Shown piece after piece: positions 1 to 21,077 of a stretch of DNA of 64,000 bases. The notes under the pieces were generated by a model. It worked only from the letters and a program-made list of their open reading frames with translations, made no database searches and was not told where the DNA came from. The translations under genes were made by a program, and so were the position numbers. This DNA comes from a bacterium (GTDB lineage: Bacteria; Sysuimicrobiota; Sysuimicrobiia; Sysuimicrobiales; Segetimicrobiaceae), in assembly GCA_035307765.1 (NCBI GenBank), contig DATGHU010000012.1:1-64000 (forward strand). The letters are read 5' to 3'. The first letter of the stretch is position 1, and the number at the start of each line of letters is the position of its first letter.

Positions 1-1
1 C

Positions 2-82
2 AACCGGGAGCGCCCGCATCAAGGCTATCGACTGCAAGGCCGGACGCCGGCGACGTTGTTCGCCGGCAGGAAGGTCAGCTAA
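2..82 (+). mobile_element. C-terminal end of an IS transposase (rve/DDE integrase type), cut by window edge
   Basis: The reading frame open from base 2 ends at TAA (80-82) and encodes 26 residues containing ERPHQGYRLQGRTPATLF. An RPHQGY...GRTPAE-like tail is typical of the last residues of IS3/IS481-type transposases with an integrase core. Only this tail is inside the window. It implies an insertion sequence abutting the left side of the phage-like element. The exact IS family and its terminal inverted repeat are not resolved. Confidence 0.6.
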
Positions 83-446
83 CCAATGCCGGAACGTTCG
101 GTTGGAGTGCAAAGGTGTCAACACCTCATCCACACTGGACAATCTAGGGGTTACTAGTGGAGATCCCGCTTCAGTCCACTCGGTATACCAAAGTCCATTC
201 CGTTACCCGAAGTGTAGAAATCCTCTGGGGGAATGGTAGACCACGCTCCCCTACTCGGTACATGATTGGACTCATGTTTGGGCACAGGTCAACAAACAAA
301 CCCTTGAAAAACAAGCCCTAGAAATAGTGGCGGCGGGAATCGAACCTGCAACCTCTCACCCAAGAATGTAGTTGTTCGGCAAGAAAGACGAATCAGCGGG
401 AGTCTTCCAGAATCCCTCGAATCAATGGTGTTGGAGGGGATCCCGA
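83..446. other. Gene-free stretch between IS tail and terminase genes
   Basis: I see no convincing gene in this stretch, which is less GC-rich than the chromosome to the right. It contains a short perfect palindrome (GGTGTCAACACC, near 113-124) that could belong to the IS end, and the tRNA-like fragment listed separately. Confidence 0.5.
326..357 (-). other. tRNA/tmRNA 3'-end-like fragment (candidate attachment-site half)
   Basis: Read on the - strand this contains a T-arm-like segment, GGTTCGATTCCCGCCGCC, resembling the 3' end of a tRNA or tmRNA. No matching 5' acceptor strand or complete cloverleaf lies upstream, so it is not an intact tRNA. Mobile elements that integrate into tRNA or tmRNA genes often carry such a 3' copy. 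It does not match the tRNA-Thr at 11714-11788, so it is not that gene's att duplicate. Confidence 0.4.
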
Positions 447-980
447 ATGCCACCGACGACCGCCGCGGGAAAGCGCCGTGCGCTGGCCAATCTACGCCAA
501 CATCGCTCTCTCACGCCTAGCAAGGCCTTCGCACGGGTCCCGTCCGACGCCATCGCGGCCAAGCGCCAAGAGGTCGAAGCAATCCTGCAGGGGGACGCCG
601 CAGGGTGGCTGCAGCCGTCCGACTCCGTCACGGTCGACCTCCTGGCTCGGGTGCTTGTTCGCCTCGATGCCATCGACGGGACAGAAGCAATTGACCGCTG
701 GCTCCGTCAGCAGGCGCATGCGGCCAAGCCGGTGATGGGGATGCCAGGCTTCGTGCAAATTTATCTGCGCCTGCTCGAACGCGCGCATAGGTTGAGCGAG
801 TCACTCGGGCTTACGCCCGTCTCTCGAAACCGCCTCGGGATCGTTGCCGGAGCGGGACTGGACCTCGCGGCGGCCTTGGCGGCAATGTCCAAAGGGGAGA
901 AAAGCTGTCCCCCCGCCTTCCGATCTGACGGACCGGCCCCGCCCGAGGAGAAATCATCGAACGACGAGGTCGAGGAATAG
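447..980 (+). CDS. terS: Phage terminase small subunit, P27-like
   Basis: A 177-residue basic protein. Its C-terminal half carries a helical stretch followed by SESLGLTPVSRNRLG, which resembles the LGLTP.SR.RL signature of P27-type small terminases. Small terminase recognises phage DNA and feeds it to the large subunit for packaging. I chose the ATG at 447 because GGAGGGGA lies 7 bases upstream; an in-frame ATG at 372 lacks a ribosome site. The stop codon overlaps the GTG of the large terminase by one base, the usual arrangement of terminase pairs. The family call rests on this motif plus the neighbour. Confidence 0.7.
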   Translation: MPPTTAAGKRRALANLRQHRSLTPSKAFARVPSDAIAAKRQEVEAILQGDAAGWLQPSDSVTVDLLARVLVRLDAIDGTEAIDRWLRQQAHAAKPVMGMPGFVQIYLRLLERAHRLSESLGLTPVSRNRLGIVAGAGLDLAAALAAMSKGEKSCPPAFRSDGPAPPEEKSSNDEVEE

Positions 981-2338
981 TGGCGATCCAGAGGGTAGAT
1001 CGGCAAACGCGGGACTTGGTAGACCAGTTGAGTCGGTGGCGCCGCGACCGCATGGCCTTCCGTCGCGAGGCGATTCTGCTGGAGGACGGGACACCTTGGG
1101 GCGAGGTGGCAGAGCCGTGGCAGCTCGAGGACTTCGCCGCCCTCGACAGCGGTCAGCATCGGCACGCCTATCTTGAACGACCTCGGGGCCATGCCAAAAC
1201 TTTCGATCTGGGTACGGAGGCGGTGACGGAACTGATCCTGGGTCGGCCGGGGCAGCAGCTCTTCTGCGCTGCCGCCGACGAGGATCAAGCGAGACTCCTC
1301 TTCGAGGATGTGGCGGGCAAGTTCCGGCGCAATCCCCTGCTCAGCGCCAGCGTACGGATCACGCAGCGGGAGATCACGGTAAGAGCCACCGGGAGCCGGC
1401 TGCGCGTCCTCGCCTCCGACGCCCCGACCTCCTGGGGCCTGCGCCCAGACTGGATCGCCGTGGACGAGCTCGCGGAATGGCGCCGACGAGAGCTGTGGGA
1501 CAGCCTGTGGAGCGCCACCGGCAAGCGCAGACGGTGCAGGATGTTGGTCATCAGCACTGCAGGCTGGGATTTCACTTCGATCGCCTCTGAAGTCCGTCAG
1601 AATGCCGCGCGTGAGGTCGACTGGTATTTCACCACTCGAGGCCAATGCGCGTCATGGATCGACGCTTCGTGGTTGGACCAGCAACGGCGGACCCTGCCGC
1701 CGCACGTCTTCGCCCGCCTGCACGAAAGCAAGTGGGTCGAGGGTGCGGGTGCGTTCCTGACCCGCGAGGAGGTTGAGCGTATCTTTGCGGGTCCACCACC
1801 GGTGAACGAGGCTGGGCCCCGGCACATAATCGGCCTGGACATTGGACTCGTACAGGACCGCACCGTCGCTTGCTTGGCCTACAGGTCCGGTGCGGACGTT
1901 ATCGCGAAGCTGTTCCGAACCTGGGCTGGTCGAGCCGGGGCACCAGTTCAACTGGGCGAGGTTGAGGCAGAGGTAACGCAGCTTGCCCGCACGTTCAGCG
2001 CGCCTGTCATCCTCGATCCATATCAGGGTGTACTGCTCGGGCAGCGGCTTCGGGACCAGGGGGTCGAGGTGTACGAGCATCCGTTCACACTAGAGAGTCG
2101 CAGGCGCTTATTCAGCGTAGTCCTACAGCTCGTCCGAGATGGCCGTCTTAGGTGCGCTCCCCACGAAGCTCTGCGCCAGGAGTTACTGACCCTCGAGGTA
2201 AGCGAGACCACTTCTGGATGGCGGGTGGACCATCGTCCCGGTAGACACGATGATCATGTGGTCGCCCTCGCGCTGGCGGCGCACCAGCTTACATCGCAGC
2301 GACCAAAGCGATACGGGATAGATTATGGTATTGCTTGA
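980..2338 (+). CDS. terL: Phage terminase large subunit
   Basis: A 452-residue packaging motor. The N-terminal ATPase shows the Walker A-like PRGHAKT (about residue 70) and a Walker B acid pair in WIAVDELAEW (about 160), followed by a coupling STAG segment. The C-terminal nuclease shows the expected three acidic sites: GLDIGLVQDRT (about 285), DPYQG (about 346) and HDDHVVALALA (about 424). Length and motif order fit an intact large terminase that cuts and translocates DNA into a prohead. GTG start, one-base overlap with the small subunit. No capsid, head maturation or tail genes follow, so its partners are missing here. Confidence 0.9.
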   Translation: MAIQRVDRQTRDLVDQLSRWRRDRMAFRREAILLEDGTPWGEVAEPWQLEDFAALDSGQHRHAYLERPRGHAKTFDLGTEAVTELILGRPGQQLFCAAADEDQARLLFEDVAGKFRRNPLLSASVRITQREITVRATGSRLRVLASDAPTSWGLRPDWIAVDELAEWRRRELWDSLWSATGKRRRCRMLVISTAGWDFTSIASEVRQNAAREVDWYFTTRGQCASWIDASWLDQQRRTLPPHVFARLHESKWVEGAGAFLTREEVERIFAGPPPVNEAGPRHIIGLDIGLVQDRTVACLAYRSGADVIAKLFRTWAGRAGAPVQLGEVEAEVTQLARTFSAPVILDPYQGVLLGQRLRDQGVEVYEHPFTLESRRRLFSVVLQLVRDGRLRCAPHEALRQELLTLEVSETTSGWRVDHRPGRHDDHVVALALAAHQLTSQRPKRYGIDYGIA

Positions 2339-2489
2339 CAAACTGCTCCGTTCGTCTCCGACGACACGCGAAGACTTCCTGCTAACTGCCTCGAGCATCA
2401 GCCAGGCTAGAACGACTCAAGGCTGGACCCATTCGGTCCACCCGCAAAGAAAATCTGCAGATCGCACAGATCCATCGACCACGTATTAG
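2325..2489 (+). pseudogene. Truncated portal-protein-like stub
   Basis: ATG at 2325 overlaps the end of the large terminase gene by 14 bases and opens a 54-codon frame beginning MVLLDKLLRSSPTTREDFLL. A portal gene normally starts at exactly this place, and MGLLDRL-type openings are common among portal proteins. The frame stops at 2487-2489, far short of the roughly 400 residues expected. I read it as the beginning of a portal gene whose remainder was lost together with the head and tail module. The resemblance is short, so the call rests largely on position. Confidence 0.4.
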
Positions 2490-2626
2490 CGAGTCCGCGC
2501 TGCAGGAGTGCCCAGAATTTCTTCGCCTTCAATCGGCCCCGCGACCCCACGCTTTGTCTGGTTGCATCTTTGACGTCACCGCACTATGTTTGACTTAGTT
2601 TGAGTTTTGATTTCTGACTCGAACCC

Positions 2627-3586
2627 GTGGCATTTCATATTCGGCAAACAGGGGGGAGCCAGTTGTTCCCTATGTTACCAAGGGCTTCGGGTGGTAACTA
2701 TCAACGGAGCGAACATACAGCGGTTTCTGAGGCACGAGTCCTGTTCCTGCAGGCTGTGCAAAGAAGGGCTGTCGGGGCCCTGGAGGCTCTACGTGAATCG
2801 GTCCTCCCACTCATATCAATACCCAGTGCGCCTTTTCCTCTGGCCCGCGTTGAGTGGATCAACCGTCCTGATGGAACATGGACGCTCATCTTCCTAAGCG
2901 CCCAGAACGAGCAGGTGGTGATTGAGGACAGCCGACGTTGGGTCCCTTTTGACGTTTCGCGTACAGATGATCCCCCCGGAGTAGCGCGCGTGAGGAAGGG
3001 TCTGACAAGTTGGGCGGATCAGTTCCACCTACGTCACACCTGGGTACTGAATGCGGCACTCGGCACACTACGACTATGGCAGATCGCCCCCCAATCCCTG
3101 AAACGGACTGACTGGGACCTGAGCTTTTCTTGGGGAATATCAAAGCGAGCGTTAGAAATCGATCCCCCCGGCTCAGAGTGGCATTGGGACCCCATCGCGG
3201 TCTGGTCCGGACTCCCCGTGGAACCATACATATTCCAAGACGCGTGGCTCATTGACCGGGAAACGCGACCTGAGGCCACGCGTCGTATCATGGAGTCCTG
3301 TGCCACGAACCTGAAAGTGTACCTAAATCGCGTAGAATCTCTCGCTCGGGAGCGAGGCCTTAAGCGGGCGAAGCAGAAGCGCAATCCCGAGCACTTCGAA
3401 TGGTTGGTTGACTACCAGACAAACGAATGGAATCACCGGAAGATTGCTGATCACTACAGCAAAAACGGGAAAATCCTCACCGAAGATGCAGTAGGCAAGG
3501 CTCTGCGGGGGACGGCCGCTCTGATCGGCCTCATCCTGCGCCCTCCCGGGAGAGGCGGCAAACCGACCTCGAAACCCCCGACTTAG
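2627..3586 (+). CDS. Unknown protein in phage-derived element
   Basis: A 319-residue protein I do not recognise. It is rich in Trp and Arg, lacks a signal peptide or membrane segment, and has a C-terminal region (about 262-312) whose alternating helices (WNHRKIADHYS, then AVGKALRGTAALIGLIL) look like a helix-turn-helix. Base composition is less GC-rich than the chromosomal genes, consistent with foreign origin. The start is uncertain: GTG at 2627 has no SD, and an in-frame ATG at 2672 has a GGGGGGAG sequence but too far upstream. It replaces the position where phage structural genes would lie. Confidence 0.5.
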   Translation: MAFHIRQTGGSQLFPMLPRASGGNYQRSEHTAVSEARVLFLQAVQRRAVGALEALRESVLPLISIPSAPFPLARVEWINRPDGTWTLIFLSAQNEQVVIEDSRRWVPFDVSRTDDPPGVARVRKGLTSWADQFHLRHTWVLNAALGTLRLWQIAPQSLKRTDWDLSFSWGISKRALEIDPPGSEWHWDPIAVWSGLPVEPYIFQDAWLIDRETRPEATRRIMESCATNLKVYLNRVESLARERGLKRAKQKRNPEHFEWLVDYQTNEWNHRKIADHYSKNGKILTEDAVGKALRGTAALIGLILRPPGRGGKPTSKPPT

Positions 3587-3654
3587 CCGTCCCCCCTCCA
3601 GCTCCTGTGCTGAAAGTCCGGCACCTCCGATAATGGTGTCGGAGGTGATGCGCT

Positions 3655-3861
3655 GTGCTCCTACGTGTTCCACGTGTAGCTAGGGTGCTGGATGTTCACG
3701 ATCACCGCGTTTACAAACTGATCCGAAACGGAGTACTCCCTTCTGTTCGCCTGGGCCGTCAGGTTCGAGTTGACGAAGATGCCCTCCGCGACTGGATTCG
3801 ACGCGGTGGCCAGTCACTTCCCGGTGGTTGGCGACGCGAGCCCAACGCTAAGACCCTCTAA
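3655..3861 (+). CDS. Small excisionase/MerR-type helix-turn-helix protein
   Basis: A 68-residue DNA-binding protein of the HTH_17/excisionase type. Residues 3-50 follow the family pattern: a helix entry (VPRVARVLDVHDHRVYKLI), then NGVLPSVRLGRQVRVDEDALRDWI, where the glycine-arginine wing and the terminal D..W/I helix are diagnostic. Such proteins direct excision or regulate early genes of mobile elements. GTG start at 3655 with GGAGGTGAT six bases upstream. A second protein of the same type lies next to the integrase (10111-10398). Confidence 0.75.
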   Translation: MLLRVPRVARVLDVHDHRVYKLIRNGVLPSVRLGRQVRVDEDALRDWIRRGGQSLPGGWRREPNAKTL

Positions 3862-4244
3862 AAATCGCTGACCACCCGCCCCGGCTTGGGGGTCTGAGCG
3901 GTTGGCCGATGGAGGCAGGCGATGCTGATGACTTCCTCCGTTTTCATTCATAGCACACCTCGGCGGCGCCACGCCAACGATAGCCTTCCGCTCGAGGCGC
4001 GAGAAAGCAATATCCTGTTCAACGATGCGAGCGCGATCGCCACGATTTACACGGCTCAACTTCCTCTCATGGCACGGCCCCGGAAACACCCGGAAGCCGA
4101 GCTCAAGCGTGAGAGACGCATCCCCGCGTAATCCGCCTCGGGCGGCGGATTCTCATATCCCGCGTGGCTGTAGAGCGCTGGCTCGCTTCCGGAGACGTGC
4201 AACAAGAGGATGCCTACGCAAAATGGGCCACTTAAAAGCGAGAA

Positions 4245-4264
4245 GCCCGGCTGACGGGCCGGGC
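4245..4264 (+). other. GC-rich hairpin upstream of the early gene block
   Basis: GCCCGGC, a six-base loop TGACGG, then GCCGGGC form a perfect seven-pair hairpin. There is no T-tract after it, so it is not a classical intrinsic terminator; AAAGGAGG follows three bases later. It may act as a transcription attenuator or an RNA-stability element ahead of the early genes. Confidence 0.45.
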
Positions 4265-4281
4265 GGAAAGGAGGCGATCTA

Positions 4282-4317
4282 ATGCGCCCCCATTTTACCA
4301 CGAAAGCGCCGTTTTGA
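4282..4317 (+). CDS. Possible 11-residue leader peptide
   Basis: ATG at 4282 is preceded at seven bases by a near-perfect SD, AAAGGAGG (4267-4274), and opens an 11-codon frame, MRPHFTTKAPF, ending in TGA. The strong SD is otherwise unexplained. It sits between a hairpin and the next gene at 4373, the layout of a regulatory leader. Nothing proves that it is translated. Confidence 0.3.
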   Translation: MRPHFTTKAPF

Positions 4318-4372
4318 GGCAAGCCTTCCCTTGAACCGGAACGATCCACAAAACCTTTGAGGAGGCCCACTG

Positions 4373-4735
4373 ATGGACATGAACAAGAATCCTCTCACGA
4401 AGAAACCTACCTTCATGTACATGGGCCCTAATGCGATCACCGAAGGTGTGCTGATTGACATCCGCGCGCTCGGCTGCATCACGCCGGACGGGAAACCAGT
4501 CGCCTACGTGAGCCGCGCGGTGTGGGACGCGTTCACGAGCGTCGCACAACCGCCGCTCCAGCCAGATACAGACGTCGCTGTCCTACGAGACGTGGTGAAG
4601 TCTCTCGCCCGGACGGGCAACTTCGACGGCGAGATGTACATCGACGAGTACTCCGGGCATGAGCTGTGGTTGATGCCGAATGGAGACGGTCAGGGCGGTG
4701 TGGTGTTCACGTTGCTGGAACCAGAAGATTACTAA
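4373..4735 (+). CDS. Small phage-type protein, DUF6573-like
   Basis: A 120-residue acidic protein. Residues 18-54 (PNAITEGVLIDIRALG...PVAYVSRAVWDAF) resemble the aIa.GvLiDv...PVavtraVW pattern I associate with the DUF6573 family of phage and plasmid proteins, whose function is unknown. GAGGAGG sits seven to nine bases before the ATG. It is the first gene of the early block (4373-5559) that runs into the primase gene, suggesting an accessory replication or host-takeover role. The family assignment is from memory of the pattern only. Confidence 0.55.
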   Translation: MDMNKNPLTKKPTFMYMGPNAITEGVLIDIRALGCITPDGKPVAYVSRAVWDAFTSVAQPPLQPDTDVAVLRDVVKSLARTGNFDGEMYIDEYSGHELWLMPNGDGQGGVVFTLLEPEDY

Positions 4736-4801
4736 ATGGAGGCGACTCCTCATTGAAACGAGTGAAAAAATCCAGTTTCGCAACAATCTAAGGAGGGGTC
4801 A

Positions 4802-5203
4802 ATGATGCCAGAAAATCGGGAATGGGAAGAGCGCAAAGGCGACGCAGACGAAGTGGTGTGGGGCTCTCCCGGCAAAACCGTTAATTTCGATTCTTACCTC
4901 GGCCGAGAGGTGAAGACAGCATCCTATGGGCCAATGACGCGGCATTGGTTTGAACTAGATGGCCAGCGCGTTTGGTGTCGTGGATACTCAGTGCTCAATA
5001 GACGGCTGAGCGATCGTGACATCGGACGACCGGTTCAGATCGAGTACACCGGCACCCGCATTTCGGCCAACGGCCACCCGAACCCTACGAAACTCTTCAA
5101 GATCTCGTTCCCCAAAGAGAAAGCTGCTCCGAGCGCCGAGATGACCTCCCTGTTCGATCTACCTGATCGGGCAAACGCGGGGGACGAAGTGGTGCCGTTC
5201 TAG
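4802..5203 (+). CDS. Small early protein with SSB-like acidic C-terminal tip
   Basis: A 133-residue protein with an AAGGAGG-type ribosome site. The body (about 20-100) is rich in beta-prone segments and includes VQIEYTGTRISANGHPNPTKLFKISF, compatible with an OB-like barrel, though I cannot confirm the fold. It ends in a linker and then LFDLPDRANAGDEVVPF. Acidic residues followed by a hydrophobic residue and terminal Pro-Phe are the hallmark of single-strand-binding proteins (DDDIPF in bacterial SSB), which dock replication proteins. Placed just before the primase-helicase and polymerase, an SSB-like role is a reasonable inference. Confidence 0.5.
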   Translation: MMPENREWEERKGDADEVVWGSPGKTVNFDSYLGREVKTASYGPMTRHWFELDGQRVWCRGYSVLNRRLSDRDIGRPVQIEYTGTRISANGHPNPTKLFKISFPKEKAAPSAEMTSLFDLPDRANAGDEVVPF

Positions 5204-5262
5204 CGGAGAGCCAGGGGAGGCGAGCGGCATCGCCTCCCCTCTCCTTCAAAGTGAGGCGTCTC

Positions 5263-5559
5263 ATGGACACCTTTTCTCCTACGGACGATTCGCACAACGG
5301 TGGGATCCGCGCCACATCGACGCCAACAGGGCAAGACACCGACGTGTCGATGGTCCGCGCGGCGCTCAGCGACCTCGTAGTGCTCGTGGCGGTCACGCGG
5401 ACGGTGTGCTGTTGCCTATGGGGGGCGAACGACACGCTCACCCTCCAGTACTCGGAGGCGGAGCGGCATGTCCTTCTCAAGGGGTACCCCGATCCGCTCC
5501 ATGCGTGGCACTGCGATGAGCGCTACGAGACATGGCGCACAGACGAGCCGCAGCTATGA
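5263..5559 (+). CDS. Unknown small early protein
   Basis: A 98-residue protein that I do not recognise. The middle (about 30-60) is hydrophobic and contains a run of three cysteines in TVCCCLW; the rest is polar. ATG at 5263 is chosen over the in-frame GTG at 5251. Its TGA overlaps the ATG of the primase-helicase gene (ATGA at 5556-5559), so the two are probably translationally coupled. Confidence 0.5.
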   Translation: MDTFSPTDDSHNGGIRATSTPTGQDTDVSMVRAALSDLVVLVAVTRTVCCCLWGANDTLTLQYSEAERHVLLKGYPDPLHAWHCDERYETWRTDEPQL

Positions 5560-7991
5560 CCTTCTCCTCGCCGCACGAGCAGTTTGTGGCGATCGTTCAC
5601 GCCCTGCAATGTAAGAACCCGGGGTGCGCCTGCCAGCAGGATTTGGAGATGATCCGGAGTGTCGACGTTCACTGCCCCGTCCACGACGATGCGCATCCCT
5701 CGTTCACGGTCACGGAAGCCGCCGACCGCGTGCTGACTCATTGTAAAGCGGGCTGCGGTTTCGACGTTGTGAGCCAGGCGCTCAGGGTCATCGGGCTCTG
5801 GACCCTGCCAGCGCCGTGCGGACTCACCCTCGACCAACTCGCCGAGGCGAAACGGTTGTCTGTCGATTTCATCAAGTCGTTTGGCGTTTACCAACTGAAC
5901 GAACGGCAATCTCCCGCGGTCGCGATCCCCTTCCACGGCCGTGACGGCGACGAACGGACGATTCAAATTCGTCAATCGCTGGATGGCGACCGTTTCCGCT
6001 GGTTGCGAGGGGGTCCGGACGTGCCCTATGGCCTCCCCAAGCTCTCCACGATTCTCGCCACCGGCTACGTGATCATCGGGGAAGGCGTCAGTGATGTCTG
6101 GACGGGCTGGTACCATTCTCTGCCCATGATCGGCGTCCCGAGCGCGTCGACTTGGGACGCCTCCTGGGCGGCGTTCTTCCCCGAAAACCTTAAGAAGTAC
6201 ATATGGTGCGAGGACGCTGCAGGCTGGGGCCTCGTCGACAAGATCGTCCGAGACCTGCCCGATGCGCTCGTGCTCCTGCCGCCCGAGGGCGTCAAGGATC
6301 TCAGCGCGCTGCACATCGCGGATCCCGAGACGGTGAAGACGATCGTGGCGCGGATGATTGCCGCGGCGAAGCCGGCATCGGAATTGACCGAGGAACGGAA
6401 ACGCGCCGAGGCCGCAAAGCAGGCCGCGGCGGCGCTCGAGCAGAGCACGGGATTGCTGGACGACCCGGAACTTATGGATCGGATTGGTTATGTGTTACAG
6501 GCCAGGGGCTTGGTCGGGGACCTCTCTGGTGTGAAGTTATTGTACTTAATGCTGACGTCGCGGTTCTTGAGCCGTCCGGTGAACGGGTATGTCGAAGGAC
6601 CGCCCTCGGTCGGCAAAAACTACTGCATCGATTGCACGAAATCGCTCTTTCCCGACGACGCCTACTATGAGCTGACATCGTCGTCCGATCGGGCCGCCGT
6701 CTTTTCCAAAGAAACGTTCGCCAACAAAATGGTGATCATTAGCGAGGTGACGGGCCTGAGCCAGGACGGCGTCGGCGCCTCGATCATCCGCGAACTGGCC
6801 TGGCGTGGGCAGCTCAGGTACGAGATCACTGAAAAGACCAAGAGCGGAACCTTCGAGACCCGGCTCATCATCAAACCCGGGCCGACAGGATTCATTACGA
6901 CGACGACGGACGGGGTGGAGCCGCAACTCGAGACGCGCATGTTTCCGCTGACCGTTTCGGATACGCCCGAGCAAACGCGGCTCATCGTCAATGAGCTATC
7001 CAGGCAGGCGGAAGAGGGCGAGCCCGAGGTTGACGTCTCCGCGTTGGTCGCGGTGCAGCGCTGGCTGGCGTTGGCCGGTCAGTATACTGTGATCATACCG
7101 TTCGCGAAAGCGCTGGCGACGCTCGTGAACGTGCGCGCGATCCGGATGCGTCGGGACTTCTCGCAACTGCTTAACTTGATCCGGTCCTCCGCCATCCTTC
7201 ACCAGCGGCAGCGACCACGAGACTCCCGTGGCCGAATTCTGGCAACTCTGCGGGACTATGCGATCGTGTACGATCTCGTGGCCGGCTTCCTCGGGGAGGA
7301 GGGGGGCGGGTTGGCTCCAGGGCAGCGCGAAGCGGTCGAGGCGATCAGGACGCTCCAGGACGGGGATGACCGGAGGCCTGTCTCGGTCTCTGAGGTCGCG
7401 AAACAGCTCCGGATCGACCCGAGATCTGTTACTCACCGAATCCAGAAGCCGCTGCGCCTGGGGTACCTGGTCAACGATGCCGAAAGGCACCGGCCCTGCA
7501 AGCTCCGACTGGCCGAGGACCCCTCCGTCGCGGCCAGCTCGGTTCCGACGCTGCGGGTGCTGGAAGCTGCGCTAAGCCGCCCCATCACCAGCGGACCAGC
7601 GCCATCTGCCAAGCCCCCAGAAACTGACAGCACCGCAGCACTTGCTTCTGCGGCCGTTGAAAATCAAGCGTTCCAGGTGCCGGTGCCCCTAAAACGTGTA
7701 AACGGCACGCCAGGCGTATCCGACCCTTCCGCCGTCACGGGAAACGGTGGAGCCGGTGCCCAGGTGCCGTCGGTGCCGTCTACCTCCAAAACCTACGTTG
7801 GCATCTCAAGCGGGCCTGCATCAAGGCCGGGCGAGTCAAGTGCCGTGGAGTCGTCCATCTTGGGGGGGATCGCGGATGGTGGAGACGGAGACGGAATCCG
7901 CCTCCCCCCCGAACAGACCTCCCTTCCGGCGGACGGGGACGGGGACCCGGACGAACTTGTCAGCCTCCTCGAGCCTCCCGGGGCCGGGTAA
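5556..7991 (+). CDS. Phage-type primase-helicase (CHC2 zinc finger, TOPRIM-like, P-loop helicase)
   Basis: An 811-residue replication protein. Domains in order: a CHC2-type zinc finger with CPVHDD..PSF (Cys40, His43) and CKAGC (Cys63, Cys67); a TOPRIM-like segment with IIGEGVSDVWTG (about 175) and a later acidic cluster; a linker helix rich in Ala/Glu; and a P-loop ATPase with GPPSVGKN (about 350) and IISEVTGLS as the probable Walker B region. A helix-turn-helix-like stretch (VSVSEVAKQLRIDPRSVTHR) is near 610, then a long low-complexity tail. It should prime and unwind DNA for replication of the element. The ATG at 5556 forms an ATGA overlap with the preceding gene. The DNA polymerase gene follows directly. 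Confidence 0.8.
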   Translation: MTFSSPHEQFVAIVHALQCKNPGCACQQDLEMIRSVDVHCPVHDDAHPSFTVTEAADRVLTHCKAGCGFDVVSQALRVIGLWTLPAPCGLTLDQLAEAKRLSVDFIKSFGVYQLNERQSPAVAIPFHGRDGDERTIQIRQSLDGDRFRWLRGGPDVPYGLPKLSTILATGYVIIGEGVSDVWTGWYHSLPMIGVPSASTWDASWAAFFPENLKKYIWCEDAAGWGLVDKIVRDLPDALVLLPPEGVKDLSALHIADPETVKTIVARMIAAAKPASELTEERKRAEAAKQAAAALEQSTGLLDDPELMDRIGYVLQARGLVGDLSGVKLLYLMLTSRFLSRPVNGYVEGPPSVGKNYCIDCTKSLFPDDAYYELTSSSDRAAVFSKETFANKMVIISEVTGLSQDGVGASIIRELAWRGQLRYEITEKTKSGTFETRLIIKPGPTGFITTTTDGVEPQLETRMFPLTVSDTPEQTRLIVNELSRQAEEGEPEVDVSALVAVQRWLALAGQYTVIIPFAKALATLVNVRAIRMRRDFSQLLNLIRSSAILHQRQRPRDSRGRILATLRDYAIVYDLVAGFLGEEGGGLAPGQREAVEAIRTLQDGDDRRPVSVSEVAKQLRIDPRSVTHRIQKPLRLGYLVNDAERHRPCKLRLAEDPSVAASSVPTLRVLEAALSRPITSGPAPSAKPPETDSTAALASAAVENQAFQVPVPLKRVNGTPGVSDPSAVTGNGGAGAQVPSVPSTSKTYVGISSGPASRPGESSAVESSILGGIADGGDGDGIRLPPEQTSLPADGDGDPDELVSLLEPPGAG

Positions 7992-7998
7992 CCAGTCC

Positions 7999-9969
7999 GT
8001 GTCGAGCCAGAAACCGACCGCATACCCGGTGGCGCGGCTCCTGTTGGACCTCCGTCGGCAGGGTGTCCAGACGATTCAGAGGACGAGCGGGGTAGCGCTT
8101 GTATGCCCCCGGCATGTCCGCACACTCGAGCTCCAGAGCCGCGTGCAGGTCAACGCGCTGGCGCTCGCGGACCTCCTCCAGGGTCTTCACGTCACTCTCC
8201 ACCTTGGCATCCCGGAGGATGCCTGGTGGCGGCACCTTGAGCAGGTAGCGGGGACCGGGACGAAACCGACCGCCGCCCGTGCGGCCGTGGCAACGGTGCT
8301 GGCCGGGAAGCCGATGCTCCCTGACACTTTGGACGAGCCCCCGGCCATGATTCCGGAGACCGAGCCGGTCGCCGTGGACGTGGAAACGATCGGCGGCGTC
8401 GCCAGCGATCATCGGGTGCCGCTACCGTGGGTCGATCCGTCCGAACTCGTCTGCGTCGGGTTCTCGATTGCCAACTGCCGGTTCGCGTTCCCAGCATCGG
8501 ACCGAGCGAACATCCAGCGGTTTCTAGGAACCTCAAACCCCAAGGTTTTCCATAATGCCATCTACGACCTCGTATGGTTGCTCGACGCGGCGTTCGAGAT
8601 CCGCGGGTCCGTCCATGACACCCTGTGGTCGCGGGCGTTCGAGAATGGTGCTGGCGTGCACGGGCTGAAGGTCACCGGCACCTTCACGTATGCGGTGCAC
8701 CTCCCGGAGAAGACGCCAGACCTGGCAAAGGTGCTGACCTACTGCGCGAACGACGCGAGGAACACCTTGAGCCTCTTCAACCCGACCTCGCCGTGGTGTT
8801 CGCATCCGTTGTACCGGCTCTATCAACGCATGGCACCGCGGGTCGCCGCCATCTCCAGAACCGGCCTGCCGTTTTTCCGGGACCGAGTTGAGGCCCGATA
8901 CGCGGAGGCCGTGGCGCGGGTAGCGTGGCTCGACGCCGCCCTGGGGCAGATCGCGCGGATCAATTGGCGGAGCGCCGACCAGGTGGCGCATGTTCTGGAG
9001 GAGGCACTGCCCAACCGTTGGACGCCGGGCGGACAGCGCGTGGTGGACGACGCGGCCCTCCGCGAGTGCGAACATCCAGCGGCCGCCGTCCTGCTCGAGA
9101 AGCGCGAGGTGGACAAGGTCGTTGGCACATACCTCAGGCCGTTCCTCCAGCGGGATCGCGTCTGCGGCCTGATCACCCTCAACGCAGCGCGGACCGGCCG
9201 GACCTCGTCCCGCTACACCAACCTGCAAAACATTCCGCGGTCGCTGCGTACGCTGTTCGGGAAAGCGGGCCACGATTGGGTCAAACTCGACTTCGCGGCC
9301 GCCGAGCTCGTGGTCGCGGCTGTCGTCGCGGAGTGCTCGTCACTGCTCGCCTGGTTCCGGGAGGGCAAAGACCCACATGCGGAAACCGCGGCCCGTATCT
9401 TCCACAAGCCGTCCCTATCCGTCACCGCCGAGGAACGTGCGGTCGGCAAGACCCTGAACTTCTCCCTGTGCTATGGCGGCACGGCGCGGACGATCGTCCA
9501 ACGGGCGACGAGCTACGGCTTGGCGTTCTCCCTCCCCGAGGCCGCGACGTTTCGAACGGCGTGGTTCGCCGCGTTCCCCGAGATGACCGCCTGGCAGGCG
9601 GAGACGATGCGCCAGCTTGAGGACGGCGAGCCGATTCGCAGTCCGTTCGGCCGCATGTGGACGATCCCGCCGCACTCGAGCCACGAGCGGAACATGGCGC
9701 TCAACGCCCCCATCCAAAGTACCGCCTCCGACCTGCTCCTGCTTGCGGCGGACGCAATCTGGGATGTCCTCCCCGGGCCGGTGGTCAACCTGGTGCACGA
9801 TGAGGTTGATGTGCTGATTCCCAAAGGGACGTGGGACGAGGCACAGTGGCGGGACATCGCCAGGCGGATGGCCGGCGTCGACGCGCGGTTCCCCATGCGG
9901 GTGGAAGTCGCCGTCGGCCCCGACTGGGGGGCGACGGTAGAGCAGTTTGTCGAGGGCGTATCGGTGTGA
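7999..9969 (+). CDS. Family A DNA polymerase with 3'-5' exonuclease domain
   Basis: About 656 residues. The exonuclease domain has PVAVDVETI (about 125), VFHNAIYDLVWLL and YCANDARNTL. The polymerase domain has motif A LDFAAAELVV (about 430), motif B GKTLNFSLCYGG (about 483) and motif C VHDEVDV (about 600). There is no 5' nuclease domain, as usual in phage enzymes. The first 60 residues (LLLDLRRQGVQ...LALADLL) resemble a small TubC-like docking module. The start is uncertain: GTG at 7999 follows the primase stop, while an in-frame ATG at 7876 would overlap the primase gene. With the primase-helicase it forms a nearly self-sufficient replication module. Confidence 0.88.
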   Translation: MSSQKPTAYPVARLLLDLRRQGVQTIQRTSGVALVCPRHVRTLELQSRVQVNALALADLLQGLHVTLHLGIPEDAWWRHLEQVAGTGTKPTAARAAVATVLAGKPMLPDTLDEPPAMIPETEPVAVDVETIGGVASDHRVPLPWVDPSELVCVGFSIANCRFAFPASDRANIQRFLGTSNPKVFHNAIYDLVWLLDAAFEIRGSVHDTLWSRAFENGAGVHGLKVTGTFTYAVHLPEKTPDLAKVLTYCANDARNTLSLFNPTSPWCSHPLYRLYQRMAPRVAAISRTGLPFFRDRVEARYAEAVARVAWLDAALGQIARINWRSADQVAHVLEEALPNRWTPGGQRVVDDAALRECEHPAAAVLLEKREVDKVVGTYLRPFLQRDRVCGLITLNAARTGRTSSRYTNLQNIPRSLRTLFGKAGHDWVKLDFAAAELVVAAVVAECSSLLAWFREGKDPHAETAARIFHKPSLSVTAEERAVGKTLNFSLCYGGTARTIVQRATSYGLAFSLPEAATFRTAWFAAFPEMTAWQAETMRQLEDGEPIRSPFGRMWTIPPHSSHERNMALNAPIQSTASDLLLLAADAIWDVLPGPVVNLVHDEVDVLIPKGTWDEAQWRDIARRMAGVDARFPMRVEVAVGPDWGATVEQFVEGVSV

Positions 9970-10139
9970 ACACTGCTAAGCGCGGAGTGCCAGCGAATTG
10001 CCCCGGCATGCCCGCGCTGTGGTGCACGGGCCTAACGTCTGCGGCGCATGAGATCGCAGTGATGGAGCGTGTGGAGGAACGTCAGCGATGGATCGGCAGA
10101 GAAGAGACCGATGGGAAGCGAAAACCCAATGAGCGGTGA
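9966..10139 (+). CDS. Possible 57-residue protein after DNA polymerase
   Basis: GTG at 9966 overlaps the polymerase stop (GTGTGA) and opens a 57-codon frame beginning VNTAKRGVPANCPGMPALWC and ending in a charged, helical stretch (ERVEERQRWIGREETDGKRK). Two Cys residues lie near the N-terminus. The overlap suggests translational coupling, but there is no recognisable family, and its end overlaps the next gene's start. It could be spurious. Confidence 0.3.
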   Translation: MNTAKRGVPANCPGMPALWCTGLTSAAHEIAVMERVEERQRWIGREETDGKRKPNER

Positions 10140-10398
10140 GCGGCAGCTCTTACTGACTGTTCGCGAGGCGAGCCGGCTGCTTGGCCTGTCAGAACGGCGG
10201 CTCTATGCTCTCATAGCTGAAGGAAGACTTCCAGGAGACATCATGATTCGGCTCGGTCGAGCTATTCGACTCAGCGCGCCACGGCTTCGGCGATGGCTTG
10301 GCGCTGATCCCACCGGAGAGCTGGGTATGGACGATAACCAGAGTCGGCCGACCATCGCACAAACACTTCGACGCTCTGCCTCTGACGACGGTGATTGA
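10111..10398 (+). CDS. Excisionase-like helix-turn-helix protein next to the integrase
   Basis: About 95 residues of the HTH_17/excisionase type. The core TVREASRLLGLSERRLYALIAEGRLPG is followed by IRLGRAIRLSAPRLRRWLG, matching the helix-turn-helix plus wing plus W-containing helix pattern. Placed 96 bases before the integrase, it is the best candidate for the element's recombination directionality factor. ATG at 10111 is chosen; GTG at 10069 or ATG at 10129 are alternatives. The first inverted repeat (10414-10433) lies between it and the integrase, a possible binding site. Confidence 0.7.
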   Translation: MGSENPMSGERQLLLTVREASRLLGLSERRLYALIAEGRLPGDIMIRLGRAIRLSAPRLRRWLGADPTGELGMDDNQSRPTIAQTLRRSASDDGD

Positions 10399-10413
10399 GG
10401 GATTCGTGCACGC

Positions 10414-10433
10414 CTGCTACCGGGTTGCTACCG
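10414..10433 (+). repeat. 20-bp repeat, left copy (inverted relative to 11646-11665)
   Basis: CTGCTACCGGGTTGCTACCG lies just upstream of the integrase gene. It has two copies of a GCTACCG half-site, and its reverse complement recurs at 11646-11665 with a one-base length difference. Paired short repeats beside an integrase gene are typical of arm-type integrase or excisionase binding sites. Confidence 0.6.
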
Positions 10434-10494
10434 AACTGGGGAGGACGTGAATGCGGTAAGCCAGAAGCCGCAGGATGCCAAAGGAGGTGCGGCT

Positions 10495-11652
10495 GTGCGC
10501 GGATATGTGGTAAAGCGTGGTCCCCATTCATTTGCAGCCGTAGTCTACATCGGGCGCGATGCTGATACCGGCAGGGAGCGGCGGAAATGGTTCAGCTTCA
10601 AGACGCGTCGCGAGGCTGAAGCCCACGTTACTTATCTTGTCTCCCAGATCCAAGGGGGTGGAACGCTCCCGGCCACCAAGCAACGGGTCGGGGAGTACCT
10701 GGAGCAGTGGCTGAAAGACTATGCGGAGGGCTCCCTCGGACCGATCACCATCGTGCGCTATCAAGGGATCATCCGCAAATACCTCATCCCTACCCTGGGG
10801 CACGTTCCGCTAGCACGTCTGTCCCCGCAGACCATTCAGGGCTACCTCACTGGTCTTCAGCAGAAGGGTCTTTCCACAACCACAGTGCGCTATCACGCAG
10901 TGATTCTGCACGAGTCCTTCGGTCATGCTGTTAAGTGGGGGTTGGTCGCCCGTAACCCCGTTGATCACGTGCAGGTCCCGCGTAAGCAATACGTCGAGAT
11001 GCGTATTTGGGACGAGGAACAAGTCAAGCTCTTCCTCGCCGAGGGGAAGCGGTCGAGCCCCTACTACCCACTCTACCTCGCCGCCCTCACAACCGGCATG
11101 CGACAGGGGGAACTTTTGGGATTGCGGTGGCAGGATGTTGACTTTCTGCTCGGTGAGGTCCGGGTCACGCAGACGTTCTACCGCCTCGGGGGGCGGGCGA
11201 TCTTCAAAGCGCCAAAAACGGATAAGGCCCGACGCACGGTCGCGGTCCCTCCAGTTCTGTTGGAGGCTCTGAAGAGCCTAGGCGAGGTACGGAACCGGCG
11301 GAAACGGGAGGCTGGCGACGCGTATGAGGACTTGGACCTCGTATTCTGCCAAACCCTGGGTAAACCGCTACATGCCCACAACGTCGTCCGGCGCGATTTC
11401 CGGGACGTCATGAAGCGTGCAAAAGTTCCCCGTATCCGGTTCCATGATCTGCGGCATTGTCACGCCACGCTGCTCCTCCAGCAGGGCGTCCACCCGAAGA
11501 TCGTGCAAGAGCGACTTGGGCACGCCACACCGGCATTCACGCTTCACATTTACAGCCATGTGCTACCGGGGATGCAGCATGAAGCAGTTGCCCGGTTGCA
11601 GGACCGCCTGTTCAGTAGCCATAGTGGTGAGAATGAATCTAGCAGCCGGTAG
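10495..11652 (+). CDS. int: Tyrosine recombinase / phage integrase
   Basis: About 385 residues. The N-terminal 50 form an AP2-like arm-binding region (VVYIGRDADTGRERRKWFSF), followed by a SAM-like core-binding domain (about 58-150) and the catalytic domain. Catalytic residues in this numbering: Arg203 (TGMRQGELLGLRW), the H317-D-L-R-H321 box, His343 (RLGHAT) and nucleophile Tyr353 (HIYSHV). All are present, so the enzyme looks active. GTG at 10495 has a perfect AAGGAGG seven bases upstream; GTG at 10447 is a longer alternative. It integrates and excises the element, most likely at the adjacent tRNA-Thr 3' end, 61 bases downstream. Confidence 0.93.
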   Translation: MRGYVVKRGPHSFAAVVYIGRDADTGRERRKWFSFKTRREAEAHVTYLVSQIQGGGTLPATKQRVGEYLEQWLKDYAEGSLGPITIVRYQGIIRKYLIPTLGHVPLARLSPQTIQGYLTGLQQKGLSTTTVRYHAVILHESFGHAVKWGLVARNPVDHVQVPRKQYVEMRIWDEEQVKLFLAEGKRSSPYYPLYLAALTTGMRQGELLGLRWQDVDFLLGEVRVTQTFYRLGGRAIFKAPKTDKARRTVAVPPVLLEALKSLGEVRNRRKREAGDAYEDLDLVFCQTLGKPLHAHNVVRRDFRDVMKRAKVPRIRFHDLRHCHATLLLQQGVHPKIVQERLGHATPAFTLHIYSHVLPGMQHEAVARLQDRLFSSHSGENESSSR

Positions 11653-11665
11653 CAACCGGTAGCAG
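11646..11665 (-). repeat. 20-bp repeat, right copy
   Basis: CCGGTAGCAACCGGTAGCAG is the near-exact reverse complement of 10414-10433 and overlaps the integrase stop codon (11650-11652). Together the copies bracket the integrase gene. They probably mark integrase arm sites near the attachment core. Confidence 0.6.
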
Positions 11666-11713
11666 ATTTGAAGATCTCGGGTGGAGCCGTCATGCGGAAA
11701 CCGTTGATAAATA

Positions 11714-11788
11714 TGGAGCCGGCGAACGGATTTGAACCGTTGACCTGCGCATTACGAGTGCGCTGCTCTACCACTGAGCTACGCCGGC
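11714..11788 (-). tRNA. tRNA-Thr (anticodon CGU)
   Basis: Read on the - strand the sequence folds as a complete cloverleaf: acceptor GCCGGCG pairs with CGCCGGC, the D-arm is AGCTCAGTGGTAGAGC, the anticodon loop CTCGTAA gives CGU, and the T-arm has GGTTCAAATCC. The 3' CCA is encoded. Its 3' end faces the integrase gene, the classical geometry for an integrase that uses a tRNA 3' end as attB. Confidence 0.95.
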
Positions 11789-11896
11789 CCGGTTGGCACC
11801 GCCAAGTATACCCCAGGGGGGCCAGCGCCACAACCTCCCTCACGATCGCCTGCGGAACGCTCGTGAGATGCCGGCCTTCGGTAAGCCGGTCGCCGT

Positions 11897-12067
11897 CTAG
11901 TGCTGCCCGCGCGAATGTTCCATGATGATCAGGATGCCAGCGACTAGGGCGATTATGTATATCAACTGGTAAAAACCTGCGAGGAAACCGAGGATGCCGA
12001 GCGAGCTCAACCCCGCGAGCACCAGGTACACTCCGAGCAGAAACATTCCCCAGTTCGTCACTCGCAT
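11897..12067 (-). CDS. Small two-helix membrane protein
   Basis: A 56-residue protein starting at 12067 with AAGGGAGGG about seven bases upstream. It is almost entirely hydrophobic: MFLLGVYLVLAGLSSLGIL, then LIYIIALVAGILIIMEH, forming two probable membrane helices with a short polar C-terminus. No family recognised. It lies between the tRNA-Thr gene and the gamma-glutamyltranspeptidase gene, on the same strand as the latter. Confidence 0.65.
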   Translation of the reverse strand: MRVTNWGMFLLGVYLVLAGLSSLGILGFLAGFYQLIYIIALVAGILIIMEHSRGQH

Positions 12068-12115
12068 CGGTGCCCTCCCTTCACATATGGCGCGGACAAT
12101 CTGACGGCCGCGCCC

Positions 12116-13876
12116 TCACCATCCCATCGCATAGCCGTTGCGCCGAGGGTCCGCGCCCCCCATCATCCAGCGGTCGTCCCGAAAGACGATCCCCTGTCCC
12201 CCTCCGACCCGCGCCGACCAATCCTCGAGGATCTCGAGCCGGTACCCGCGGGCGGCAAGGGCCTTGCGAACCGCGGGCGGGAACCGCCCTTCCAGGAGGA
12301 GGACCTTGGGCGGCAGCGGGTCCCCGACATCGTCCTTCCACCGGAACCGCGGCGCCGCGATCGCGTCCTGAATGTTCTTGTCGAAGTCGATCAGGTTGAT
12401 GATCATCTGAGCGGTCGTCTGTGGAATGCCATAGGATCCGGGGGTGCCGATCATGAACGCGAGCCGCCCCCCTTTCGAGACGTGCGCGGGTCCGAGTGGG
12501 TCAATCCCAAACGATTGGGTCGGCCCTACCGGCACCTCGTTCAGCCCGAAGACGTGCATCGGCGACGAGGGTGATTCACGCCGCTTCCCGGGGGCGAGTT
12601 CCTTGGGATCCCCCGGGATCAGCGTGCACCAGTGGTGCCCGTTGTTCATCGCGATACCGGTCCGGCCGATGACGACGCCTGATCCGTACGAGGAGCCTAG
12701 TGTTTGCGTGATGTTGACCGCGAGCCCGCTCGCATCGGCGGCGGCCAGGTGGGTGGTCGAGCGCTCGGGCGCGGACCGAGCCCGGCGAATCCGCTCCGCC
12801 GTCCGGCGGCGGCCGCCGTTGCGGGTCGCCCGCGCGACACGCCGCCGCGAACGGCCCCCCATCGCGTCCATGCGGCGGCTCACCTCCGCCCGGAGCTCGC
12901 GGATGCGCTCGTCGCTCAGCATCCACGCCAGCGGCACCTCGACGAACAGGGGATCGGCGACGTGGGCCGCCGCGTCCATTCGAGCGAGCCGGATCGCCTC
13001 GGCGACCACGGCCACGTGCGCCGGGCCGAGATGTTCTAGGTCGGCGAGGTTGAACGCCTCGAGGATGCGCAGCGTTTGAAGGATCTGCACCGCGCTGCTG
13101 GGAGGCGGGGTCGTGCGAAGCTCGTACCCCCGATACATCGCGGTGACCGGCGCCTCCCAGTGCAACGAATCGGGATAGCGCTGTAGGTCCTCTTCTGAAA
13201 TCAACCCGCCGTGCTCGACCATGTAGGTGGCGATCGTCTGGGCGATGCGTCCTTCGTAGAAGGTCATCCACCCTTCTTGAGCGATCGTCCGGAGCGTCAG
13301 GGCGAGGCCCGGCTGGCGAAGCAACTCGCCCACCGCGTATGGACGGCCGTCGTTGAGGTAGGTGCGGGCGGCGTCGGGGTGCGGGGTCAGACGGTCCACC
13401 GCCAGGGCCGTCCGCTCGAAGTCGAAGCGCGTGACCGGGATGCCGCCGTCCGCGAGCTCAATCGCCGGCTCCAACACCTGCGCGATCGGCAGCGAACCGA
13501 ACTCGCCGTGCAGGCGCGCCCACCCGGCAACGTTCCCGGGGACCATGGGAGCGAGCGGGCCGAGGTCCTGCGTGCGCGCCGTGAACATCTCGGGGCGCGC
13601 CCGTGCCGGGCTGCGGCCCAGGAAGTTCAGCGTCCGGGTCTCCCCGGTCGGGAGCGTCAGCACGGCGATGCCGATGCCCCCTACCGCCGAAAAGTACGGC
13701 TCCACCACCGTGATGGCCGCCGCGGTCGCCACGGCCGCATCGACGGCGTTCCCGCCCGCGGCCAACATCCGAAGACCGGCCTGCGTGGCGAGCGTGTTGG
13801 CCGAGGCGACCATCCCGCGCCGGCCCAGAGCCGTGGGCCTGACGCCAAACTCCGATGCGCCTCCTGCGTACGCCAC
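12116..13876 (-). CDS. ggt: Gamma-glutamyltranspeptidase-like Ntn hydrolase
   Basis: A 586-residue proenzyme. N-terminal landmarks are RRGMVASANTLATQAGLRML and the Gly-rich GGNAVDAAVATAAAITVVEP. The autocleavage site with nucleophile Thr374 lies in ERSTTHLAAADASGLAVNIT, followed by the SSYGSGVVI and TPGSYGIPQTTAQMIINL segments. The family transfers or hydrolyses gamma-glutamyl groups of glutathione and related amides. No signal peptide is visible, so a cytoplasmic location is likely. An unusual Arg-rich run (about 335-370) precedes the cleavage site. GTG start at 13876 with GGAGGTG upstream. Confidence 0.88.
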   Translation of the reverse strand: MAYAGGASEFGVRPTALGRRGMVASANTLATQAGLRMLAAGGNAVDAAVATAAAITVVEPYFSAVGGIGIAVLTLPTGETRTLNFLGRSPARARPEMFTARTQDLGPLAPMVPGNVAGWARLHGEFGSLPIAQVLEPAIELADGGIPVTRFDFERTALAVDRLTPHPDAARTYLNDGRPYAVGELLRQPGLALTLRTIAQEGWMTFYEGRIAQTIATYMVEHGGLISEEDLQRYPDSLHWEAPVTAMYRGYELRTTPPPSSAVQILQTLRILEAFNLADLEHLGPAHVAVVAEAIRLARMDAAAHVADPLFVEVPLAWMLSDERIRELRAEVSRRMDAMGGRSRRRVARATRNGGRRRTAERIRRARSAPERSTTHLAAADASGLAVNITQTLGSSYGSGVVIGRTGIAMNNGHHWCTLIPGDPKELAPGKRRESPSSPMHVFGLNEVPVGPTQSFGIDPLGPAHVSKGGRLAFMIGTPGSYGIPQTTAQMIINLIDFDKNIQDAIAAPRFRWKDDVGDPLPPKVLLLEGRFPPAVRKALAARGYRLEILEDWSARVGGGQGIVFRDDRWMMGGADPRRNGYAMGW

Positions 13877-20412: not shown

Positions 20413-20684
20413 CTCTAGGTGAATGCCCCTGTCCGCAGCGGATCGGTCTCGTCCATTCTGACGGCTTCCACGTATCGTTCGAGTTGCCGACCCGGAGGCC
20501 CGAGACAGGCTGGGCGGAAGATCGACGGAGGTTCCCCCGAACGCGGAGCGGCCCCCCAGGCGGCGAGTGGTCCGCTGAGGGCGCGACGCCTTTTCGCGGG
20601 TTTTCGTGTGGGGCACGGCACGCCGGGGGGACCGGATGGCCTAGGGGCAGCACCTCTTCGATCGGGCGGGCGACGTTGTGTGTC

Positions 20685-21077
20685 TTACGATTTCTCCAGC
20701 ATCGCCTTCATCGGCCGCCAGTAGTGGGTGATCCAGCCCGACTTCTTGTCCCGGTAGTCTCGATCCGGCACTCCCACCTGAACGAAGGTGAGGCGGGTCC
20801 CGCCCCGCACCGGCCTGAGGTCGAACGTGACCGTGGAGTAGTGGAACTTCGGCCAATTGTTGGACCGCCAGAATTGCACGATTCGCCGGCCCGGCACGAG
20901 CTCGAGGTTGACCCCGCTGAGGTAGGAGCCGTAGGCGGTAAAGCTCCCGCCCGGCTTGCGGCTGATGCGGGCCGGCGCCCCGGTAAACTTCGCGTGCCGG
21001 CGCGAGTCCACCAGCGCCTCGTAGACGGCGCGCGGGCTGGCCTTGAACGTCACGGACTGTCGGATGGTCTTGGGCAT
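20685..21077 (-). CDS. SRPBCC / AHSA1-like START-fold protein
   Basis: A 130-residue protein that begins IRQSVTFKASPRAVYEALVDSRRHAKFTG and contains GGSFTAYGSYLSGVNLELVPGRRIVQFWR, the strand pattern of the AHSA1/SRPBCC ligand-binding family, ending with a C-terminal helix (WITHYWRPMKAMLEK). Members usually form an operon behind an ArsR-family repressor; here only the repressor's promoter, operator and first codons remain upstream. GGGGAGGGAGC lies just before the ATG. Ligand unknown. Confidence 0.85.
   Translation of the reverse strand: MPKTIRQSVTFKASPRAVYEALVDSRRHAKFTGAPARISRKPGGSFTAYGSYLSGVNLELVPGRRIVQFWRSNNWPKFHYSTVTFDLRPVRGGTRLTFVQVGVPDRDYRDKKSGWITHYWRPMKAMLEKS

Follow-up and report, generated by a model that had tools for sequence, protein, structure and literature searches.

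Genes of the block beside tRNA-Thr(CGT)

The analyzed window is a stretch of 64,000 nucleotides that corresponds to G000:C12:1-64000 in the assembly of its own genome (G000), and its first base is the contig end (C12:1). A block of phage-type genes occupies positions 326-11,788, and all genes named in a preliminary description of the window were found there on the + strand. The block begins with a gene for a TerS-like protein (372..980, +; the start lies possibly as late as 447), which directly precedes the gene for the large terminase subunit TerL (452 amino acids [aa], 980..2338, +); the terS stop overlaps the terL start. TerL matched PF03354 (E 6e-17) and phrog_9 (E 1e-36), and its profile matched the HK97-type ATPase domain of PDB entry 6z6d and the phage nuclease domains of 5tge and 5m1f. 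The matches of the TerS-like protein were weak (Terminase_6, E 0.003, and Terminase_4, E 0.012, both below the curated cut-off; phrog_83, E 0.03). Of the two terminase subunits that had been proposed for the block, the large one is present and the small one is a sub-cut-off candidate. terL is followed by a 319-aa open reading frame (ORF) with no assigned function (2627..3586, +). This ORF and two smaller ones, of 120 aa (4373..4735, +) and 133 aa (4802..5203, +), had no Pfam, PHROG or PADLOC match. Predicted structures of the TerS-like protein (pLDDT 47) and of the 319-aa ORF (pLDDT 36) were too poor for use.

The replication genes comprise a primase-helicase (819 aa, 5532..7991, +) and a family A DNA polymerase (7999..9969, +; PF00476, E 8e-48; phrog_17, E 9e-82), whose start is uncertain because the ORF is open from 7747. 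Pfam named nothing in the primase-helicase ORF, and its PHROG primase matches were weak; its identity was assigned on the basis of a 28.7% identical relative, the primase/helicase of Thermoanaerobacterium phage THSA-485A (residues 46-266, E 3e-15), and of the Walker A motif GPPSVGKN. The protein also contains zinc-binding-like cysteines. Two excisionase-like proteins of the HTH_17 type are encoded, one of 68 aa (3655..3861, +; PF12728, E 1e-12; phrog_66, E 6e-8) and one of 109 aa (10069..10398, +; PF12728, E 1.5e-8; phrog_66, E 5e-6). The latter adjoins the gene of a tyrosine integrase (401 aa, 10447..11652, +; PF00589, E 2e-26; PF14659, E 2e-10; phrog_1, E 2e-75). The integration target, a tRNA-Thr(CGT) gene (11714..11788, -), was identified by ARAGORN. 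Pfam, PHROGs and a portal HMM gave no match to portal, capsid, protease or tail proteins in the visible block. The earlier view of the block as a set of packaging, replication and integration genes without structural genes was thereby confirmed by Pfam, PHROGs and ARAGORN; divergent structural proteins that match no family are possible within it.

The active sites had been described as apparently intact, and inspection of the catalytic motifs bore this out for all three enzymes concerned. TerL carries PRGHAKT, VDELAEW, D287, D346 and HDD at 423-425, and its catalytic Asp residues were kept in an alignment with the ATPase and nuclease structures. Motifs A, B and C of the polymerase (KLDFAAAEL, RAVGKTLNFSLCYG and HDE) are intact, and the integrase contains its catalytic residues (R..HDLRH..GH..Y).

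Borders and candidate left neighbors

The right attachment core (11694..11759, +) consists of the 3' part of tRNA-Thr plus 20 bp. On the left, the right end of an IS481-family insertion sequence (1..147, +) lies outside the element and cuts its left side; because the contig starts inside this repeat, the left border of the element is unreadable from C12. The genome assembly (51 contigs, 96% complete) contains eight copies of IS481, several of which are located at contig ends, and the copy on C26 is complete, its transposase scoring above the NCBI cut-off for IS481 (NF033577, 243 bits; cut-off, 224). We attempted to pair contigs by the target duplication, which proved uninformative since CTAG was found at all IS481 ends examined. 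The IS481 right ends at C12:1 and C40:1 are 99% identical, as are the left ends at C6:1 and C51:1. Because of these matching left ends, the left neighbor of C12 is probably C6 or C51. Synteny of the left flank of C40, compared in six relatives, fitted neither C6 nor C51. An unassembled contig between two IS481 copies is also possible.

According to the best 25 family matches, C6 encodes transporters, catabolic enzymes, a serine resolvase and a restriction-modification set between the insertion sequence and base 38010, and the C51 genes within 13 kb of its start are metabolic as well. The portal HMM had no match on C6:1-38100 or on the whole of C51, and no phage head genes were detected on either candidate neighbor. 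Structural genes immediately to the left, which the preliminary description had named as evidence that would refute it, were thus not detected on C6 or C51, with the proviso that the contig itself starts inside a repeat. Furthermore, HK97 capsid and portal families had no match in the entire 96%-complete assembly, while control genomes were positive. The restriction-modification-like set lies in the low-GC region of C6 (G000:C6:29390-32156; L005 9390-12156) and is made up of genes for a cytosine methyltransferase, an HNH endonuclease and a protein that matches models of type II nicking endonucleases.

Directly before terS we found a tRNA/tmRNA-type acceptor and T-arm fragment (326..357, -), a possible integration scar. 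The fragment shares an 18-nt exact match with the 3' end of the genome's own tmRNA on C1 and had no Rfam match; the chance expectation for its 26-mer was 0.00. It differs from the tRNA-Thr core and therefore does not represent a simple attL of the block's integrase. On C1 (L179/L180), tmRNA 3'-end-like fragments occur at 1554, 6341 and 9857, upstream of the tmRNA gene (c[20449-20799]), suggesting from their sequence that this region could be a second integration hotspot.

Relatives of the terminase and the polymerase

The search for TerL relatives covered 43 genomes of the phylum and 386 genomes overall. The preliminary description had proposed a search of related genomes for the same gene order without structural genes, and two elements with a similar arrangement were found. 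In G029, a member of the same order but of another family, a TerL 72% identical to that of the window lies in an element flanked on both sides by repeats of the 3' end of tRNA-Pro (81 nt, 91%), with a start-to-start spacing of 10,727 bp. This element encodes a DnaB-like helicase, an HTH_17 protein, an Hjc nuclease, TerL, several small ORFs and a tyrosine integrase. The second element, in G161 from another phylum, is bounded by perfect 39-nt repeats of the 5' half of tRNA-Arg (spacing, 11,215 bp) and encodes a RepO-like initiator, a DnaC-like loader, TerS, TerL and a tyrosine integrase. Searches for portal, capsid and tail families gave no match in either element. Both are flanked by att repeats on the two sides; the block of the window has an integrase and the right att core. 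A 166-aa ORF of the G029 element (G029:C5 [L114] 7822-8322) matched a head maturation protease family with its N-terminal 33 residues only (E 6e-4); judged by sequence, it may be left over from a head module that was lost, or it may be scaffold-like. In G177, a complete 6.4-Mb genome from another phylum, genes for a ParB-like protein, a P-loop ATPase, a possible TerS and TerL occur together (G177:C1 [L197] 9338-13405). This cluster sits among cellular-looking genes, and the portal HMM had no match at the TerL locus. G026 retains only a TerL remnant.

Substitution rates in terL and the polymerase gene, a check likewise proposed beforehand, gave a dN/dS of 0.16 for TerL (compared with G029, with synonymous sites nearly saturated) and of 0.23 for the polymerase between lineages. 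These ratios show purifying selection on both proteins between lineages; they speak for past selection and say nothing about present activity.

Viral sequences served as controls. Peptide-pattern searches for TerL found no relatives in GTDB contigs or IMG/VR, and IMG/VR TerLs were reached only by a four-sequence profile. In all six phages taken from those nearest by TerL, terL is directly followed by the portal gene (five phages) or the capsid gene (one phage). The portal HMM was positive in 62 of the 68 viral contigs that encode a related TerL and extend for 1.8 kb or more downstream of it; the same HMM had no match in the window block or in the G029 and G161 elements. In a midpoint-rooted tree of ten sequences, the TerLs of the window, G029, G177 and G161 clustered apart from the six phages with a support of 100/100. 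We also considered whether this TerL lineage is confined to capsid-less elements, which was ruled out by a 9.2-kb IMG/VR contig (L207 3582-6890) that encodes, in this order, a head protease, a TerL of the window's lineage (32% identical to that of the window) and an HK97 capsid; the portal HMM had no match on this contig.

The polymerase was found in other surroundings as well. A 9.4-kb contig, G010:C19 (L027), encodes a polymerase 72% identical to that of the window together with a large serine recombinase/integrase and a different, 944-aa primase-like protein (22-6777) beside tRNA-Leu(GAG); no TerL was detected on it. G005 contains a 19-aa polymerase remnant near tRNA-Leu. These two occurrences indicate that such polymerases circulate in integrative elements of the window's bacterial family. 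IMG/VR matches to the polymerase reached only 21-28% identity, and family A polymerases of this kind in actinobacteriophages are about 25% identical.

Interpretation as a candidate satellite and alternatives

The preliminary description had left open whether the block is a decayed prophage or a satellite-like element. The two att-bounded elements now lend better support to the second possibility, and with moderate confidence we regard the block as a satellite-type integrative element that would bring its own packaging motor and replication genes and borrow its particles. The mechanism that we infer would start when a helper phage enters the cell or is induced, upon which Int and an HTH factor would excise the element. 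Its own primase-helicase and PolA would then copy the element DNA, and TerS-TerL would pick this DNA, dock on the portal of the helper and fill helper proheads. The helper-made particle would carry the element to a new cell, where Int would integrate it at tRNA-Thr.

The strongest evidence for the satellite interpretation is comparative and comes from sequences: no structural genes were detected in the two att-bounded elements, which measure about 11 kb and encode a related TerL; a portal match was obtained in 62 of 68 viral contigs but in neither of these elements; and the TerLs of the window, G029, G177 and G161 group apart from the six phages (100/100). It is further favored by the intact genes and active sites, by the purifying selection on TerL and the polymerase and by the assembly without an HK97 capsid or portal match. 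Own replication genes and the lack of a full virion structural set in the visible block agree with what is generally expected of satellites. However, the left border lies at an assembly break in the IS481 repeat, the TerS match is weak, L207 combines a protease and a capsid with a TerL of this lineage, and the weak head-protease match in G029 fits a descent from a phage by loss, all of which argue against it.

Alternatively, the block could be a decayed or interrupted prophage whose structural genes were lost, e.g., in a deletion mediated by IS481, or are located between IS copies on a contig missing from the assembly, the early and packaging genes being left still intact. We consider this unlikely but possible. 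The contig is broken by IS481 right next to the block, further integration scars at this tRNA-Thr show degradation, and G026 holds nothing but a TerL remnant. However, two att-bounded elements of near-equal size keep terminase, replication and integrase genes without structural genes, no phage genes were detected on either candidate left neighbor, and the assembly lacks an HK97 capsid or portal match. A complete prophage is at odds with the gene order: no portal or capsid gene was detected downstream of terL or on C6 and C51. In temperate HK97-type siphophages, whose TerL is homologous to that of the element, terL is followed by a portal or capsid gene, whereas here it is followed by the 319-aa ORF and later by the replication genes.

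It is rather improbable, but conceivable, that the block and C6:1-38010 belong together in a single tRNA-Thr island measuring about 51 kb, with transporters, catabolic enzymes and a restriction-modification set as cargo and with the phage-derived genes serving to integrate, replicate and perhaps package it. The tRNA-Thr core has just one close copy (97%), located at G000:C6:38010-38074, 38 kb from the IS end of C6, and C6:1 is one of the two matching IS481 left ends. The part of C6 that lies outside the core copy shows conservation in four relatives; the inner part, C6:26000-38010, shows none in the family except for paralogues and a 330-bp match in G002. The GC content is 58.8% for C6:149-38000 and 61.8% for the block versus 67-70% for the other contigs compared. 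The core copy, the conservation pattern and the GC content favor a join of C6 and C12, which we infer from these features, and C6:1-38010 is possibly a cargo island. On the other hand, C51 is an alternative neighbor and synteny did not decide between the two, the related bounded elements measure about 11 kb and lack such cargo, and the inner end of C6 resembles a different element: over the 283 bp just inside the core it matches the beginning of a G002 element (80%), so that C6 may be an older neighbor. We rejected C6:38010 as the left end of a single 50-kb prophage, given that C6:1-38010 consists of transporters, enzymes and the restriction-modification set. That TerL is a domesticated DNA-processing nuclease acting in maintenance or defense without packaging is very unlikely: the related TerL gene of G177 does neighbor genes for ParB-like and ATPase proteins in a region that otherwise looks cellular, and the polymerase does occur in an element without a detected TerL (G010:C19), but the residues of the motor and of the nuclease are all retained in TerL, and both in the window and in G161 its gene comes after one for a TerS-like protein.

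Compared with known satellites, the proposed satellite shares traits with several types. Phage-inducible chromosomal islands (PICIs), including the staphylococcal pathogenicity islands, possess an integrase, an excision factor and their own replication without virion structural genes; some encode a TerS that redirects packaging, and they use the TerL of the helper (PMC10690885). The element likewise has an integrase, excisionase-like proteins and its own replication, with no structural genes detected, but in contrast to PICIs it encodes its own TerL and a family A polymerase. Capsid-forming PICIs (cf-PICIs) encode TerS and TerL, lack tails and encode capsid, portal, protease and connectors; a PICI thus brings TerS or an adaptor, and a cf-PICI brings the whole head plus TerS and TerL (PMC10690885). 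The element resembles the latter in encoding TerS and TerL without tails and differs from them in that no capsid, portal, protease or connectors were detected. P4-like satellites have no terminase and encode a capsid-size protein, Sid. P4 DNA is packaged by the terminase of the helper (PMC10690885), and no terminase was identifiable in the Pseudomonas satellite AH14b (PMC4936722). Like the element, P4-like satellites and AH14b are integrated and replicate autonomously with a primase, and they borrow capsids; the terminase of the element sets it apart from them. PICMIs are small and contain an integrase, an HTH (AlpA) regulator and a primase without capsid genes; homologues of terS or of other genes for redirecting packaging were not found in them (PMC10803314). 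They integrate next to fis, whereas the element lies at tRNA-Thr and has a terminase. Tycheposons are tRNA bordered, carry a tyrosine recombinase and may hold 4-200 kb of metabolic cargo (as described in PMC10872708). The element is similar in its tRNA border and tyrosine integrase, and a link to the cargo on C6:1-38010 is only putative. The open-access literature that was searched, with the original VEIME and tycheposon reports outside it, yielded no description of a satellite with TerL but without a portal.

Tentatively, and at somewhat less than even confidence, these elements could represent an undescribed class of satellites of about 11 kb that combine a terminase motor with self-sufficient replication, lack head and tail genes and occur in at least two bacterial phyla. 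If so, the class would close a gap, as PICIs bring only TerS and capsid-forming PICIs bring a whole head module. A satellite motor could then dock on a foreign portal, implying that motor-portal docking can be hijacked, and the movement of tRNA islands in poorly studied phyla could be explained. A searchable signature is an att-bounded segment of about 11 kb that contains terL but no portal gene.

Upstream of the same tRNA-Thr(CGT) locus, 3'-end scars of 44-52 bp were observed in several genomes of the family (G002:C68 [L138] 746-3957; G005:C9 [L137] 4161-8485; G006:C135 18924-28669; G009:C28 18176-19924). Judging from these repeats, the locus is a recurrent integration hotspot with putative tandem remnants.
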